Shown here: one piece after another, positions 6,377 through 63,600 of the stretch
Numbering within the stretch: the first letter of the stretch is position 1
Layout of the letters: every line of letters starts with the position of its first letter
From: Bemisia tabaci
Lineage: Eukaryota > Arthropoda > Insecta > Hemiptera > Aleyrodidae
Direction of reading: 5' to 3'
NCBI RefSeq assembly: GCF_918797505.1
Contig: NC_092800.1
Location: 35,950,263 to 36,014,262, forward strand
Length of the DNA: 64,000 nt
Program-made: the position numbers and the translations under genes
Notes under the pieces: generated by a model
What the model saw: the letters and a program-made list of their open reading frames with translations, nothing else
Databases searched by the model: none
What the model was told of the DNA's origin: nothing

Positions 6377-7221
6377 GAAGTGTATTGATCTATTCTCAGA
6401 CGATGTGGCAACGCTGTTAGGTACTTATCACTGGAGCAATCGCGGCATTATGACGCGGCGCTGGGACACCGCTGCACCGGAGGCGGAGGAGAGAAAGCCC
6501 CCCCCCCCCCCCGGAGGGAGAGGGGGGGGGAAGCGCAGCTGTCAGAACTTTTTAAAGCCAAAGGAAGACAGGAGTCCAAATCTTTTGAAGTCGCCTCTTT
6601 TCCGAACGTCAAAAATAAATGAAAAAAAAGAAGAAGAGAAAAAAAAAAGTTAAGGAGGAAATGACATTTTGCTCGCGAGACTCGAATCCAGAATCACGGA
6701 CTTAGGAGAGAAATTTCCTCGTCTAAAAAATCCAGACCAAGGTGCGCTCGAGTTAGCGTTGATGAGAAAGGAGAAGGGAAAAACACATCCGAGTAAACCG
6801 GGGAGGGTTGCCGCTTCGTCGGGATTTTCCGTTGCGTCGCGATGAGAGGTGCAGAAAACTTTGCCGTTTTCGAATACTTTCGCCGACGAAAGAACGTTTC
6901 TGCGTATCAACACCGCAAAATATCTGCTTAAAATTTTTACTTTTACTAAAAAAAAACTATGGACGTTTTTGCCTGAAAATGTCACTACTATAACTTCCAC
7001 GGGCAAAAATCAGTCAAATTTTAGATAGATATTGGTTGGTCCTATTTGAAGTCTAAAAAAATAATTTTTTGCGCTCTTTTTGCAACCTTCAAAGGAAGTT
7101 AGAATTCTTCGTCTGGTGACTTATATCTGAGGAGTATTGACATGTTTTTGCCGGAGAACTGCCAGCCATTGCAGAAAAATAGTTTTTACGCAAGTTACAT
7201 ATTTTTTATAAAAAATTGTTT
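6377..7221. other. Unassigned interval with C- and G-runs
   Basis: A C-run and G-runs at about 6499-6530 are followed by A-rich sequence to 6655. No gene or dispersed repeat recognised. The 114- and 118-codon frames here are artefacts of low-complexity sequence. Confidence 0.4.
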
Positions 7222-7343
7222 GGACATTTTTCTGTCAAATAAAACTATGAACATTAGGGCATGAGCCCTGAGACCCATAAGAATATATGCATAACAAGGC
7301 TCACGTCATAATGCACATAGTTCTATCTGGCAGAAATACGTCC
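7222..7343. mobile_element. Family J hairpin, copy 1
   Basis: Left arm ggacatttttctgtcaaata, right arm tctggcagaaatacgtcc, with actatg/catagt blocks inside. Further copies lie at 23898, 38508 and 45068, with a half-copy at 20699. Confidence 0.75.
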
Positions 7344-9922: not shown

Positions 9923-10718
9923 CCCCTAACCACGTATCTCAGATTATGCTGTGCAGACTTCCTGTCATACATTAGTTTTTAAATAATGAACTGCTCAATG
10001 TTAATTCCTAAGACTTCTTTAATTTTTCTTCTTGGTGAGAGGCAAATTTTGGAAAAACTTCAAGGAATGGTGTCCATTTGTTCTTCATTCAAAGAATCAA
10101 TTAGGAGCGGAACTTTTTAGACACCGCAAACGAGATACGTATATACAGTTTGGAAGTTTCAATATTGATAGGTTTCATCTGTGTGGCTCATGAGAATCCA
10201 TGAAACTGGATGAGATATTCGAAGTGCTTGTAATAATATTTTATTTTAATGGTCGTTCCTTATGTATCGGCGAAAGGACCCATTAAAAGTTTCTGTGCTT
10301 GCAGCATCAACAGACTTGCACTGTAAATTATTCATAATGTTCACGTCGATGCACGCGAATGTATGTTCTTAGTTCCATGAATCATTTACACTGCATTGCG
10401 CAAAAAAAACTACTGTTTCTAACTTATCTTGCAAACGTGGCAACAACGCGTGTATAGTTAGTTTCTCATACGGACATGTGCTTTCATGAAAGTGTCGGAT
10501 GTATAGCTTGTAACGTACTAAAGTTATATATTCAAGTATATGACTTCAGTACAAGCATGCAATCGCAGTGTAGTAACTACACGTTTTAACGGGACTATTT
10601 TCATTTGCTTCACCAACAATTTTATCTTCAAAACTCGATTATAACACAAACAAATCAACTAAACACAGAGTAATTCTTCTTCTGTAATTCTACTGTAATT
10701 CCAAATAACCACGCTCCA
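9923..10718. other. Unassigned AT-rich interval
   Basis: No supported feature. Confidence 0.35.
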
Positions 10719-11380: not shown

Positions 11381-12519
11381 AGCTTTTTGCCTGTCTCAAA
11401 ATTCTCAAAATACGGACGTTTATGAATGCACGAGTAGGTACCCTACTCGCATCGTTGATTGCGGAGACCAAGCGAGCATCTATTATAAATTGCCTTCAAA
11501 AGGTCAATTGTATGGATTTTGATAAGTTCTTTTTTCACTTTTTCTTTCACCTTTAGTTAATCTTATTTGACATAATCACAAATGTATATAAACGTCCCGT
11601 TTGCTCCCAAAATATAATGCACACATTTAAAACAAAATCGACGCTTTAAAGGCGATTTGAAGGGCGAAATTTTTGGAGGTGTTCTTTTGTTTAGCTAAAT
11701 AATTCAGGGTTAATTTTCATTTAAGTGAGATATAATACCTTCATTTTTCTTCCGTTTTCTGCCCATTGTGCTTGACTCAATGACAAATCGACTGTGCAAG
11801 TCGGCAATCACGTAACTCGTTTGCGGTGTCTGAAAATCTCCGCCTTTGTATTATTTTTTTAAGATAGAACAAATTGACATAATTACTTGAAGTTTATGCA
11901 AAATTTTCTTCGCACAGAGAAGAAAAATCATGGCAGTTTTAAAGAATTGCCGTCGAGTAGTTTTCCGTTTAAAAAATAAAGTATGACAGGACGTCTGCGA
12001 CGTCGCAAATCGAGTTATGTGATTGCCGACTTACACCGTCGAAATGCAGATACATCCTGGTTGATAAATTCCAACCAATCGGATCCAAACGAACACAACC
12101 ATGAAAAATACTGCTCAACCCGAACGGAGTCTTCTCTTTTTCACCAATATTTGATGGAGTATTTCATTCAGTACGAGAACAGGCAATACTGAGGGGGAGT
12201 TTCGACTCAGAAGTCACTGCCAAGCGTCCCTCCAGAGAGCGTGAAAAACAGCCTCGACCAGTAGTCTCTTAAGTGCCGAGTAAGACAGCCGCTATTAATG
12301 CCCATAAGAAATACCAGAGGGCGTCCAGCGCTGCGATAAATCATACGCAGAGCAAGGAATACACGACAGAACAGGAATTCTAGCCAAAAAGATGTCTGCT
12401 CCTTGTAGTCGTCCGATGATAATATATCACCAGTTTTCGTGGATGATTGGGCATTATATTTCGGCTATTGACGATCGGAAGTTCTTCTTTTTGATACAAA
12501 TCTCAAGGACCCAAAGAAT
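11381..12519. other. Unassigned interval
   Basis: No gene or dispersed repeat recognised. The 69-codon frame at 11983-12192 (MTGRLRRRKSSYV...) has a plausible composition but no family I know and no splice context. Confidence 0.35.
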
Positions 12520-16980: not shown

Positions 16981-17219
16981 CACTGGAAAAAAAAACCACA
17001 TTGGATCTAGAGTCCAGACTCTTAAAAACATCGATAAGAAAAAATACTCTTGATTCAATCGGATTTTTGCTTAAATCAAGAACCAAGCCTCTTAATTCGA
17101 GCGGATTTCCTTTTGATTTAAGCAAAAATCTCATTGAATCAAGAGTATTTTTTCTTGTCAATGTTTTCAAGAGTCTAGACTCTAGATCCAATGCGTTTTT
17201 CTTCCAGTGCACTGAATTT
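16981..17219. mobile_element. Family A MITE, copy 2
   Basis: Termini cactggaaaaaaaaacc and gtttttcttccagtg. Nearly full-length self-complementary arms (ttggatctagagtccagact / agtctagactctagatcca). Because the element is a hairpin, both strands carry similar 132-codon frames with repeated LESRLLKT and RKNTLDS segments; these are artefacts of repeat symmetry. Confidence 0.9.
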
Positions 17220-23112: not shown

Positions 23113-23339
23113 CACTGGGAAAAAACATATTGGATCTAGAGTCCAGACTCTTGAAAACATCGACAAGAAAAAGTACTCTTGATTCAATCAGAATCTAGCT
23201 TAAATCAAGAACCAAGCCTCTTAATTTAAGCGGATTTCGTTTTGATTCAAGCAAAAATCCGATTGAATCAAGAGTATTTTTTCTGGTCAATGTTTTTAAG
23301 AGTCTGGACTCTAGATCCAATGTTTTTCTTTTTCCAGCG
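23113..23339. mobile_element. Family A MITE, copy 3
   Basis: Termini cactgggaaaaaacatattg and gtttttctttttccagcg. Arms as in the other copies. Confidence 0.9.
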
Positions 23340-28895: not shown

Positions 28896-29121
28896 CACTG
28901 GAAACAAAATACATTGTATCTAGAGTCTAGACTCTTAAAAACATCGACAAGAAAAAGTATTCTTGATTCAATCAGAATCTAACTTAAATCAAGAACCAAG
29001 CCTTTCAATTTAAGCGGATTTCGTTTCGATTCAAGCAAAAATCCGGTTGAATCAAGAGTATTTTTTCTTGTCAATGTTTTCAAGAGTCTGGACTCTAGAT
29101 CCAATGTGTTGTTTTCCAGTG
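28896..29121. mobile_element. Family A MITE, copy 4
   Basis: cactggaaacaaaatacatt and gtgttgttttccagtg termini. Confidence 0.9.
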
Positions 29122-33470: not shown

Positions 33471-33695
33471 ACACTGGAAAAAACACATTGGATCTAGAGT
33501 CCAGACTCTTGAAAACATTGACAAGAAAAAGGACTCTTGATTCAATCAGATTTAAGATTAAATCAAAAGGAAATCCGCTCAAATTAAGAGGCTTGGTTCT
33601 TGATTTAGCAAAAATACGATTGAATCAAGAGTATTTTTTATTGTCAATGTTTTTAAGTCTGGACTCTAGATCCAATGTGTTTTATTTCCAGTGTA
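33470..33695. mobile_element. Family A MITE, copy 5, TA-flanked
   Basis: The element is 33472-33693, with cactggaaaaaacacattgg and gttttatttccagtg ends and TA on both sides. Confidence 0.93.
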
Positions 33696-38507: not shown

Positions 38508-38629
38508 GAGCGCATTTCTGTCCAACGGAACTATGTGCATTATGACGTGAGCCCTGTTATGCACATATGCTTATGAGTCTCAGGGTTCATGTCTTGATGC
38601 ACATAGATCCGTTTGATAGAAATACGTCC
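38508..38629. mobile_element. Family J hairpin, copy 3
   Basis: gcgcatttctgtccaacgga at the left pairs with ccgtttgatagaaatacgtc at the right. Inside, actatgtgcattatgacgtg and tgatgcacatag pair. Confidence 0.8.
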
Positions 38630-38730
38630 ATTTGACGGATTCACTTCAGAATATTCAAGTTCAACATGATCCAGCTGGGGAAAATGATGGTATATCTAAC
38701 TTTTTTGTAATTATTTGAAAAGCCTTCACG

Positions 38731-41111
38731 GTGCCCCTGAACTCACTTTAAATGCGACTTTGTTGTACATCAAAAATTCAAGTTGGAGGTTGTAGTGGGG
38801 TACTCCCTGATGGGTTTTTGGGCAATTTCGAAATAGGTTGTCGGAGCTCCTCGAAAAATAATCGCATTTTTGTGGTTTTTTAGGGGTAAAATAGCAAAAT
38901 TGGCCTCCGGGCGACAAATTAAACCCCCTCTCCCTCATCCTTGCCTTGACCGATCTGAATTTTTAGTATGTTTTTACCTGGTATAAGATGGGACTTTTCT
39001 GAAATTTTCATGCCCATACAAATTTTTTGCTCCCGCGGCAGCGTTGCCAAGTTGCGGACTCCAAAATATCGAATTTAATGATAAAATGAAGGTTTCGGAG
39101 TGTGATTTCCATTCAAAATCAAAAATTCAAATTGTAAGTTGTAGTAGGGTACTGCCTGATGGGGTTTTGGCCAATTTCGAAGTAGAGTGTTTGAGATTTT
39201 GAAAAATAATCGAATTTTTGCGGTTTTTATAAGGGTAAAATAGCACACTGAGCACGGGGCGGCAAGTTGAACCTTTTCTCTCTCATCCTTGCCGTGACCG
39301 ATCTGAACTTTTAGTATGTATTAACCTGGTATAAGATGTGACTTTTCTGAAATTTTCATGCCCATACAAAATTTTTTGCCCCCCGCGGCAGCGTTGCCAA
39401 TTTGCGGACTCAAAAATATCGAATTTGATGATAAAATGAAGGTTTCGAGGTGTGATTTCCTCCAAAATTTCACGAAAAATGTGCAATCTGAGAGTTTTCG
39501 ATAAGAAAAGGCATACTTGAACAATTTAGAGTTGCAGTGTTGCCAGCTTTTGATTTAAAATTCGTCAAAATGACCCAAATCGCGTTGCAACCTCGAGCGC
39601 TGGATTTTTATTTCGTTCAGAATTGGTTATTACGGTTCTTCTGTACTCTATGCATTTAGGTACCATGAAAATTATGCCATTACTTACTTGATGGGTGCAG
39701 CTAACTCAAAAAGAGAGGCCGGATAAAGCGATGAGTCGGGGGAAAACGAGCGGTTCGGGTTGACAGAAAGTTCTTAAATCTACTCCATCACCAGAAAGTA
39801 GAATTTGAGAACTTTCTCCCACCCCCCAAACCTTATCCCTGTTGCAGTCAATCCTTTGAACATCTGATCTGAAATTTTGCCCCCAAATTTTTACCAAAAC
39901 ATGAAAAATAAAAACACGTTTTTGTGCAAAAACACATCATGTTTTTGGTAAAAATTCGGGGGCAAAATTTCAGATCAGATGTTCAAAGGATTGACTGCAA
40001 CAGGGATAAGGTTTGGGGGGTGGGAGAAAGTTCTCAAATTCTACTTTCTGGTGATGGAGTAGATTTAAGAACTTTCTGTCAACCCGAACCGCTCGTTTTC
40101 CCCCGACTCATCGCTTTATCCGGCCTCTCTTTTTGAGTTAGCTGCACCCATCAAGTAAGTAATGGCATAATTTTCATGGTACCTAAATGCATAGAGTACA
40201 GAAGAACCGTAATAACCAATTCTGAACGAAATAAAAATCCAGCGCTCGAGGTTGCAACGCGATTTGGGTCATTTTGACGAATTTTAAATCAAAAGCTGGC
40301 AACACTGCAACTCTAAATTGTTCAAGTATGCCTTTTCTTATCGAAAACTCTCAGATTGCACATTTTTCGTGAAATTTTGGAGGAAATCACACCTCGAAAC
40401 CTTCATTTTATCATCAAATTCGATATTTTTGAGTCCGCAAATTGGCAACGCTGCCGCGGGGGGCAAAAAATTTTGTATGGGCATGAAAATTTCAGAAAAG
40501 TCACATCTTATACCAGGTTAATACATACTAAAAGTTCAGATCGGTCACGGCAAGGATGAGAGAGAAAAGGTTCAACTTGCCGCCCCGTGCTCAGTGTGCT
40601 ATTTTACCCTTAAAAAACCGCAAAAATTCGATTATTTTTCAAAAATCTCAAACACTCTACTTCGAAATTGGCCAAAACCCCATCAGGCAGTACCCTACTA
40701 CAACTTACAATTTGAATTTTTGATTTTGAATGGAAATCACACTCCGAAACCTTCATTTTATCATTAAATTCGATATTTTGGAGTCCGCAACTTGGCAACG
40801 CTGCCGCGGGAGCAAAAAAATTTGTATGGGCATGAAAATTTCAGAAAAGTCCCATCTTATACCAGGTAAAAACATACTAAAAATTCAGATCGGTCAAGGC
40901 AAGGATGAGGGAGAGGGGGTTTAATTTGTCGCCCGGAGGCCAATTTTGCTATTTTACCCTAAAAAACCACAAAAATGCGATTATTTTTCGAGGAGCTCCG
41001 ACAACCTATTTCGAAATTGCCCAAAAACCCATCAGGGAGTACCCCACTACAACCTCCAACTTGAATTTTTGATGTACAACAAAGTCGCATTTAAAGTGAG
41101 TTCAGGGGCAC
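38731..41111. repeat. 2.38-kb near-perfect inverted repeat (long hairpin)
   Basis: The left arm 38731-39904 and right arm 39937-41111 are reverse complements separated by a 32-nt loop. Only a handful of differences were seen in the stretches compared (for example an extra base in a T-run, attcggg versus atttggg, one fewer C in ttacccta), so identity is about 99% by eye. The outer ends are gtgcccctgaactcac and its complement. I see no target duplication outside. Identical 67- and 70-codon frames appear in both arms as mirror images; they resemble no family and are explained by the symmetry. It could be a foldback transposon or a long hairpin-RNA locus; an assembly artefact is possible but less likely given the unique loop and arm differences. 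Confidence 0.93.
38768..39466 (+). repeat. Diverged tandem duplication inside each arm
   Basis: Unit 1 (about 38768-39113) and unit 2 (about 39114-39466) align along their length. Shared blocks are tcctgatggg-type, caatttcgaa, catccttgcc, gaccgatctgaa, cctggtataagatg, gaaattttcatgcccataca, cgcggcagcgttgcca and gataaaatgaaggttt. Identity is roughly 80% by eye, far lower than between the two arms. The mirror copy lies at about 40376-41074. Confidence 0.85.
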
Positions 41112-42294: not shown

Positions 42295-42331
42295 TTACCT
42301 ACTAGTGAACGATTGCGTGCGTTATTTCCAA

Positions 42332-42557
42332 CACTGGAAAAAAAAACACATTGGATCTAGAGTCCAGACTCTCAAAAACATCGACAAGAAAAAGTACTCT
42401 TGATTCAATCAGAATCTAGCTTAAATCAAGAACCAAGCCTCTTAATCTAAGCGGATTTCGTGTTGATTCAAGCAAAAATCCGATTGAATCAAGAGTATTT
42501 TTCCTTGTCAATGTTTTCAAGAGTCTGGACTCTAGATCCAATGTGTTTTTTCCAGTG
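42332..42557. mobile_element. Family A MITE, copy 7
   Basis: cactggaaaaaaaaacacat and gtgttttttccagtg ends. Flanked by AA rather than TA. Confidence 0.92.
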
Positions 42558-53053: not shown

Positions 53054-53527
53054 TCCAGGATCATTGAAATGTTGCTAAGATTGTGCTCTTTCGCCCATTT
53101 CAATACAACTATTGATATCCTGAAAAAGTATGTAATTTACATGGAAATTTTTGTCCTAAATTTACAGTTTTAGAGAGTGAAATAGAAACTGTCTGAAGAT
53201 AATCATGGTTTGTCTTCCAAGACGAAAGAAGCTGCACCATCTTAGCAATACTCTGGAAAAACACATTGGATCTAGAGTCCAGACTCTTAAAAACATCGAC
53301 AAGAAAAAGTACTCTTGATTCAATCAGAACCTAGAGTAAATCAAGAACCAAGCCTCTTAATTTAAGCGGATACCGTCTTGATTCAAGCAAAAGTCCGATT
53401 GAATCAAGAGTATTTTTTCTTGTCAATGTTTTCAAGAGTCTGGACTCTAGATCCAATGTGTTTTTTATTCCAGTGTATTTTGATGCTCCTGGTTCTTTTT
53501 TGCGAAATGCAATCCAATTATTCCGCA
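53054..53527. mobile_element. Family S element, copy 2, interrupted by family A
   Basis: gctaagattgtgctctttcg at the left pairs with gctgcaccatcttagcaata before the A insertion. After it, gatgctcctggttcttttt and tgcaatccaatt complete the right end. The left terminus is lost. Confidence 0.75.
53249..53477. mobile_element. Family A MITE, copy 8, TA-flanked, inside family S
   Basis: The element is 53251-53475, with ctctggaaaaacacattgg and gttttttattccagtg ends and TA on both sides. Confidence 0.93.
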
Positions 53528-55212: not shown

Positions 55213-55560
55213 AAAGGAAAAGAAGTTAAATAATTTTTTATCCGGGCTGTAATTAAATATGCCTAAGTTTAATGATTCTGATCGGTCACAAAACTCGGGC
55301 ACCGATCGCAGCAGAGTTAAGTTGGGTTAAGTTAGGTCACGCAACTAAACTAACTTAAAGGCAAGGCGGGAAGTATCACTCGAATTGAAGGCGCTCCAGA
55401 TCGCAACAGAGTTAGGTTGGGTTAAGTTAGGTCACGCAACTAAACTAACTAAAAGGCAAGGCGGGAAGTATCACTCGAATTGAAGGCACTCCCGAAAGTG
55501 AATTCACAGCGTTGGTGGCCTGCGCAACATCCCTCCAAGTAAAGGAGTTCCAACGAGTTC
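55213..55560 (+). repeat. Family F repeat, copy 3, with 95-bp internal duplication
   Basis: Matches 47915-48165, but the segment from gatcgcagcagagttaag to ggcgctcca is repeated in tandem (starts 55304 and 55399). Confidence 0.85.
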
Positions 55561-61789: not shown

Positions 61790-62085
61790 TTTGTTGTGTT
61801 TGATTGTGTTTCATGGTGTGTTTGATGTGTTTGATTGTGTTTCATGATGTGTTTGTTGTGTTTGATGTGTTTGATTGTGTTTCATGATGTGTTGTGTTTG
61901 ATGTGTTTGATTGTGTTTCATGATGTATTTGTTGTGTTTAATGTGTTTGATTGTGTTTCATGATGTGTTTGTTGTGTTTGATGTGTTTTAGGTGTATCAT
62001 GATGTGTATATTGCGTTTTACGTGTTTCATGATGTGTTTGATGTGTTTGCTATGTTTCATGATGCATTTGATGTGTTTTATCCCG
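61790..62085 (+). repeat. TGTTTGATGTGTTTGATTGTGTTTCATGATG minisatellite
   Basis: About 300 bp of nested repeats combining tgtttgatg, tgtttgattg and tgtttcatgatg modules, with increasing divergence toward the right end. Confidence 0.93.
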
Positions 62086-63600
62086 GTTCCTTAACATAGT
62101 TACATCCACTATTATAAATGACTATACTGTATAGGTAAAATTACTGCATATTATCCCGGTCACTCTGAAGAAATCCGGTTTTATCCCAGTCATTACTGCT
62201 TTAGAATGAAACGATGTATCGAAGATCGATACACAAAGATCGATATCCTTCCTGTTTTCCCGGTTTATTAATATAGGTACATCCCGTTTTATCCATGACT
62301 ATCCTGTATAGGTAAAATTCCTCCACTTTATCCCGGTCACTATGAAGAAATCCCGTTTATACCAGTCATTACTGCTTTAGAAAAAACGATGTATCGAAGA
62401 TCGATACACAAAGATCGATATCCTTCCTGTTATACCAGTTTATTAATATAGGTACATCCCGTTTTATCGATGACTATCCTGTATAGGTAAAATTCCTCCC
62501 TTTTATCCCGATTATTATGAAGGAATCCCGTTTTATCCCAGTCATTACTGCTTTAGAAAAAAACGATATATCGAAGATCGATACACAAAGATCGATATCC
62601 TTCCTGTTATCCCGGTTTATTAATATAGGTACATCCCGTTCATCCATGACTATCCTGTATAGGTAAAATTCCTCCCTTTTATCACGGTTATTATGAAGAA
62701 ATCCCGTTTTATCCCAGTCAATACTGCTTTAGAACAAACGATGTATCGAATATCGATACACAAAGATCGATATCCTTCCTGTTATCCCGGTTTATTAATA
62801 TAGGTACATCCCGTTCATCTATGACTATCCTGTATAGGTAAAATTCCTCCCTTTTATCCCGATTATTATGAAGGAATCCCGTTTTATCCCAGTCATTACT
62901 GCTTTAGAACAAAACGATATATCGAAGATCGATACACAAAGATCGATATCCTTCCTGTTATCCCGGTTTATTAATATAGGTACATCCCGTTCATCCATGA
63001 CTATCCTGTATAGGTAAAATTCCTCCCTTTTATCCCGATTATTATGAAGGAATCCCGTTTTATCCCAGTCAATACAGCTTTAGAACAAACGATGTATCGA
63101 ATATCGATACACAAAGATCGATATCCTTCCTGTTATCCCGGTTTATTAATATAGGTACATCCCGTTTTTCCATGACTATCCTGTATAGGTAAAATTACTC
63201 CCTTTTATCCCGGTTATTATGAAGAAATCCCGTTTTATCCCAGTCAATACTGCTTTTGAACAAACGATGTATCGAAGATCGATACACAAAGATCGATATC
63301 CTTCCTGTTATCCCGGTTTATTAATATAGGTACATCCCGTTCATCCATGACTCTCCCGTATAGGATGTAAAATTCCTCCCTTTTATCCCGGTTATTATGA
63401 AGAAATCCCGTTTTATCCCAGTCAATACTGCTTTAGAACAAACGATGTATCGAATATCGATACACAATGATCGATATCCTTCCTGTTATCCCGGTTTATT
63501 AATATAGGTACATCCCGTTTTTCTAGGACTATCCTGTATAGGTAATAATCCTCCCTTTTATCCTGGTTATTAGAAGAAATACATCCCATTTTTATACCTG
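62086..63600 (+). repeat. About 175-bp satellite, eight to nine units
   Basis: The block cctgtt-atcccggtttatt starts at 62251, 62426, 62603, 62778, 62954, 63129, 63304 and 63482, giving periods of 175-178 bp. Each unit contains tataggtacatcccgtt, gactatcctgtataggtaaa, tttatcccagtca and gatcgatacacaaagatcga. Most units differ by only a few bases; the first and last are more diverged, as expected at array edges. Confidence 0.96.

Follow-up and report, generated by a model that had tools for sequence, protein, structure and literature searches.

Foldback transposons have been suggested to arise independently in several lineages of transposons, for the most part Mutator but also, for example, P, as far as the excerpts cited here describe them (PMC4079207, PMC4168063). 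In the same excerpts, Galileo (P superfamily) and Tetris of Drosophila have long inverted ends, tandem units within the arms and copies without a coding interior (PMC4168063, PMC4079207), and the arms of Galileo also vary in length and have recruited interior sequence (PMC4168063); their target duplications are given as 7–8 bp (Galileo; PMC4168063) and 8–10 bp (Tetris; PMC4079207). Chapaev transposons of the CMC clade are characterized in the text available by the terminal rule 5′-CAC ... GTG-3′ (PMC4079192), a 4-bp duplication and the transposase signature D, D, C(2)C, H(3–4)H, E (PMC4079192, PMC12730594). A long inverted repeat able to give double-stranded RNA (dsRNA) is also described for insect hairpin-RNA (hpRNA) loci in the relevant portion of PMC10317233. 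The palindrome family that we analyzed in Bemisia tabaci resembles each of these systems in part. It shares the architecture of Galileo and Tetris, but unlike them it has CAC...GTG ends, 4-bp duplications and a linked RAG1-like transposase; it shares the termini, duplication and signature of Chapaev, but differs from Chapaev as described in those excerpts (PMC4079192, PMC12730594) in having kilobase inverted ends, a near-perfect palindromic derivative and an added SGNH-hydrolase-like frame; and unlike insect hpRNA loci it comprises dozens of mobile copies, with no target gene among the matches listed.

The window, the 64,000-nt stretch of DNA that we analyzed (C8:35950263-36014262), had been read from sequence alone as containing a near-perfect hairpin with a 32-nt loop, which was interpreted as either an hpRNA locus or a foldback transposon. 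The hairpin was borne out (loop 39905–39936; arms 38731–39904 and 39937–41111), and its arm identity, put at about 99% by eye, was 99.49% over 1,177 columns when 38731–39904 on the plus strand was aligned with 39937–41111 on the minus strand. Six differences separated the arms: a substitution at 39885, four single-base indels in homopolymer runs and a fifth such indel (39229), an additional A next to a run of T. In a predicted RNA fold (−2213 kcal/mol), 1,171 of the first 1,179 bases paired no more than 8 nt from their mirror partner. The hairpin was indeed unlike the other inverted repeats of the window, being the longest and most alike by far of 67 that measured at least 60 nt, with the next in rank reaching about 220 nt at 81–85% (25 longest of the 67 listed). 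Although the arms had been placed correctly, the element starts not at 38731 but 4 nt earlier, with CACG at 38727, and it ends with GGGGCAC at 41111, without CGTG (Table 1). Each arm contains two ~350-nt tandem units, 86% alike, followed by ~436 nt of unique arm, and arms of 1,174 and 1,175 nt out of 2,385 nt make the inverted repeats the bulk of the element, as in a foldback. No stop-to-stop frame longer than 109 aa overlapped the hairpin, and the window gave no matches in an Rfam search at gathering threshold, in tRNA, phage and plasmid searches or in one IMG/VR pattern search.

Table 1. Features of the window copy (positions within the window).
Feature	Position	Strand	Remarks
Whole foldback element	38727..41111	.	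2,385 nt in window copy
Left arm (left terminal inverted repeat)	38727..39904	+	Terminus CACGGTGCCCCTGAAC
Loop (spacer)	39905..39936	.	32 nt; short-loop subfamily
Right arm (right terminal inverted repeat)	39937..41111	-	Final CGTG and target duplication absent
Left arm, tandem unit 1	38769..39118	+	~350 nt; 86% to unit 2
Left arm, tandem unit 2	39118..39468	+	~350 nt
Right arm, tandem unit 2	40374..40723	-	
Right arm, tandem unit 1	40723..41073	-	
CCTT, presumed left target duplication	38723..38726	+	Inferred: adjoins CACG terminus; right partner absent

Searching the window's own genome (610 Mb, 151 contigs) with one arm, a check proposed by the sequence-only reading, returned at least 70 matches at about 35 places, 94–100% identical to the arm (best 40 of 312 candidates scored). 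We retrieved sequences for 34 other places (L009–L042) and later for L073–L075, and found dozens of hairpin copies at unrelated sites of the genome, with true ends CACGGTGCCCC...GGGGCACCGTG. The exact 16-mer end CACGGTGCCCCTGAAC occurred 97 times in the genome and its reversed control not once, so that the CAC...GTG termini of Chapaev were present at 97 exact ends. These comprised 42 convergent pairs, spanning 1,747–3,029 nt, and 13 single ends, among them the left end of the window copy; 18 of the 42 pairs measured 2,385–2,395 nt, and the commonest length was 2,392 nt. When 950 nt on each side of 36 loci were compared, no two flanks had more than 600 nt in common at >90%, and 11 flanks had a repeat of at least 150 nt in common with another flank. 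The copies also varied in structure: the tandem-unit arrangement of the left arm was altered in L021 and L029, some copies had longer loops of about 430–660 nt, and the two longest copies measured 3,024 nt (L035) and 3,029 nt (L075). The 7-nt end CACGGTG resembles the heptamer of the recombination signal (RSS), CACAGTG.

No target duplication had been visible to the sequence-only reading, which holds for the window copy because its right terminus has lost the last 4 bases, but not for the family, in which a 4-bp duplication flanked 42 of the 43 clean-ended copies. In a first set of 35 loci, both ends were clean, with at most 2 mismatches tolerated, in 29, and 28 of these had the duplication; no such pair of ends was present in the window copy, L011, L014, L022, L027 and L036. 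Adding 14 further end pairs brought the total to 43, with L018 (longest flank match 2 bp) as the sole exception. Randomly re-pairing the flanks gave a mean of 1.2 matches and a maximum of 6 in 2,000 shuffles, versus the 42 observed. The duplication thus lies within the 3–4 bp of Chapaev, and no 5-bp duplication of the Transib kind was found, the longest flank match being 4 bp in 42 copies and 2 bp in one. The insertion site showed weak palindromic symmetry, A C [C N N G] G T, with (n = 42) C before the duplication in 34 cases, C first inside it in 26, G last inside it in 29 and G after it in 22. For one copy, L024, we joined the flanks with a single duplication and found at least 38 element-free places that matched across the join at 84–87%; the sites are paralogous, and the left flank of this copy is a genomic repeat (best 40 of 782 candidates scored, with two other listed matches being L024's own flanks).

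These results bear on whether a chimeric palindromic read might have been built into the assembly. Foldback artefacts do occur in long reads, according to the excerpt of PMC12870357, and four of the six arm differences in the window copy are indels in homopolymers, the kind that base-calling errors produce. However, the same 2.39-kb palindrome recurs at numerous loci, which have unrelated flanks and 4-bp duplications specific to each locus, and subfamily-specific changes are common to both arms. An artefact is therefore extremely improbable, and for the family a chimeric palindrome is ruled out by the like structure at many unrelated loci.

The long-loop copies led to a gene-bearing relative. 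L035 extends the palindrome inward and retains a coding scrap that includes KPDGVHLNSRGLLIIWN, and searching the genome with its loop returned at least 106 matches (best 40 of 76 candidates scored), leading to C1:1212593-1219944. This 7.35-kb element has ends CACGGTG...CGGTG, with CAGG duplicated on both sides. Its inverted ends, about 1.7 kb long, are 96–98% alike in three stretches with gaps between and are 91–94% identical to the hairpin arms over the longest stretches. Its interior contains a transposase on the minus strand, broken into five frames, and a second gene in two plus-strand pieces (L090:3359-3987), which we take to be an SGNH/GDSL-like hydrolase from its GDS, GSND and DGVHLN motifs, Lipase_GDSL_2 scoring below its cut-off (E 0.035). 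The scrap in L035 is from the C terminus of this hydrolase-like gene. Because the hairpins share inverted ends with a gene-bearing element, they are best read as its interior-deleted derivatives, with likely intermediates within one genome: long ends with genes, a long loop and a short loop. Copies of a repeat that lies between the two genes of the C1 element also occur in the window at 11806–12021 (79%) and 9925–10140 (75%).

Both genes of the C1 element, transposase (minus) and hydrolase-like (plus), run outward into the arms, which is relevant to the idea that the hairpin is an hpRNA locus. Transcription through both arms would then yield a dsRNA of more than 1 kb to be diced into siRNAs, which would silence the parent transposon or have no target. 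The near-perfect folding fits this idea, as do the outward genes, whose 3′ regions arm-derived siRNAs could match, and the coding scrap DGVHLNSRG kept in the long-loop L035. Against it, no host-gene target appeared among the at least 70 arm matches listed, all 94–100% identical to the arm (best 40 of 312 candidates scored), and transposition accounts for the structure by itself, leaving the ability to fold as the support. As a transposable element it requires nothing but its ends, while its folding would allow a dsRNA role. Judging from sequence, we consider an hpRNA role unlikely, although it is compatible with a foldback transposon; a lone hpRNA locus as the primary reading was rejected, the arm being present at about 35 places.

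RAG1 is an enzyme of our immune system. The transposase pieces in the C1 element (L090), together with 29 aligned relatives, carry the signature D, D, C(2)C, H(4)H, E, which belongs to this related element and not to the hairpin itself. Pfam above cut-off and PDB sequence searches gave no match that confirmed a class, the only domain found being zf-AD at the N terminus of one relative, P0007. Chapaev transposases carry an N-terminal Chapa zinc-finger domain; here the N terminus has CxxC motifs, and of the pieces and two relatives scanned, zf-AD passed its cut-off in P0007 only. The fold, by contrast, indicates a RAG1/Transib relationship: the predicted model of P0001, a metagenomic relative 50% identical to the C1 copy and used in its place, had RAG1 and Transib as its best structural matches (PDB 6cg0, 6xnx, 6pqx), with about 11–16% sequence identity in the aligned parts. 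The core fold is thus like that of these recombinases, whereas the duplication is 4 bp here versus 5 bp. From termini, duplication, signature and the modelled fold of a relative, the family is best filed as Chapaev-type, in the RAG1/Transib clade. The longest open transposase frames in the genome (713 and 690 aa) were 63% and 58% identical to the C1 transposase. CACGGTG was absent from a 4-kb stretch (L094) covering the 3′ part of the 713-aa frame and its downstream side; a 55-nt piece of hairpin arm (84%) lies downstream of that frame at L094:1403-1455, hinting at subterminal motifs common to different families.

A foldback of another superfamily (Mutator, P or Transib) would be in keeping with most described foldbacks being Mutator-like and Galileo being P-like, in the excerpts of PMC4079207 and PMC4168063, and with the fold that Transib has in common with the transposase relative. 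The 4-bp duplication differs, however, from the 8–10 bp of Tetris (filed as Mutator), the 7–8 bp of Galileo and the 5 bp of Transib (as excerpted from PMC4411706), and the transposase pieces between matching ends bear the CMC/RAG signature, making another superfamily very unlikely.

We compared arms in 27 copies whose two arm matches each reached 1,100 nt or more (best arm-search matches plus two fetched later, a sample that leans towards well-kept copies). The two arms of one copy were on average 1.04 substitutions apart, versus 10.4 for arms of different copies; the partner arm was closest or tied closest for 43 of 54 arms, and at changes common to several copies the arms agreed 122 times and disagreed 10 times. 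L009, L010 and L011 had no substitutions between arms, indicating that the spread was recent. Five further pairs on C1 had 0, 2, 12, 2 and 32 arm differences; the pair with 32 (2,170 nt) is too short for two full arms and is probably misaligned, and the pair with 12 (2,440 nt) seems to hold both arms, so arm likeness is not universal. As a test of arm conversion in place, we sorted changes private to one copy: they fell in both arms or a single arm at 25 : 15 in the 27 intact copies versus 9 : 14 in five damaged-arm copies (Fisher p = 0.11), an earlier count with fewer background copies having given 30 : 18, and arm differences numbered 28 in 31,664 columns of intact copies versus 15 in 3,705 columns of damaged ones. 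Outside this comparison were L021 and L029, with shifted tandem units (6/568; 0 : 2), and the five C1 pairs (48/5,812; 27 : 34). When each of seven damaged copies was compared directly with itself, the mismatches numbered 1, 6, 3, 5, 4, 3 and 5 in 394–931 nt. The greater divergence of arms in partly deleted copies could be explained by conversion in place or by higher age, and equalization in place and equalization at transposition both stand as readings.

The foldback-transposon alternative of the sequence-only reading is upheld by the dispersed copies, the 4-bp duplications, the empty sites for one copy and the transposase-bearing relative that shares the inverted ends. The family is a real, recently active foldback family of RAG1-like/Chapaev-type descent, and the window hairpin is very probably a non-autonomous member moved in trans by a RAG1-like transposase. 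Such an element would have originated from a Chapaev-type transposon of the RAG1/Transib clade whose inverted ends measured 1.7 kb; presumably its coding interior was lost, which brought the two ends face to face with a short loop between them. The CACGGTG ends would be recognized by a RAG1-like transposase supplied from another place in the genome, which would excise the element and insert it into ACCNNGGT-like sites, with duplication of the 4 bp in the middle, and the arms of one copy may be kept nearly identical by recurrent conversion, or repair, that copies one arm onto the other. Counting against this explanation are the window copy, which lacks its right terminus and target duplication, the lack of a duplication at L018, the breaking of the transposase between matching ends into five frames, the limited identity (63% and 58%) of the longest open frames to it, the absence of CACGGTG from the L094 stretch, the want of a classifying Pfam or PDB sequence match, and a structural match that comes from P0001 and not from the C1 copy. 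It is distinctly doubtful that palindromes so mobilized, with arms kept identical in the chromosome by conversion, are also read through from neighboring promoters to yield dsRNA against the outward 3′ regions of both parent genes; if they were, the transposon's own wreckage would be a dispersed RNAi trigger against the parent element.

No Chapaev foldback was described in the excerpts of the literature matches listed, which is no proof of absence; our finding adds a lineage of the RAG1/Transib clade to the origins of foldbacks. In addition, with dozens of nearly identical natural palindromes at unrelated loci, the stability of such structures and the conversion between their arms can be measured.

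Several other repeats occur in the window. A ~115-nt short inverted-repeat element (38511–38626) lies close to the hairpin on its left and has a second copy, 82% identical, at 7221–7337. A palindromic repeat of ~230 nt occurs in about six copies, 80–91% alike, at 16990–17209, 23113–23337, 28896–29121, 33472–33614, 42331–42557 and 53256–53476; with ends like CACTGGAAAA...TTCCAGTG, these form a MITE-like family, perhaps also of the CAC/GTG kind. A tandem array at 62078–63580 has 8.5 copies of a 175-bp unit (92% matches; a 351-bp period also fits), and two 95-bp tandem copies at 55304–55492 (95% matches) contain GTTAAGTTGGGTTAAGTTAGG.
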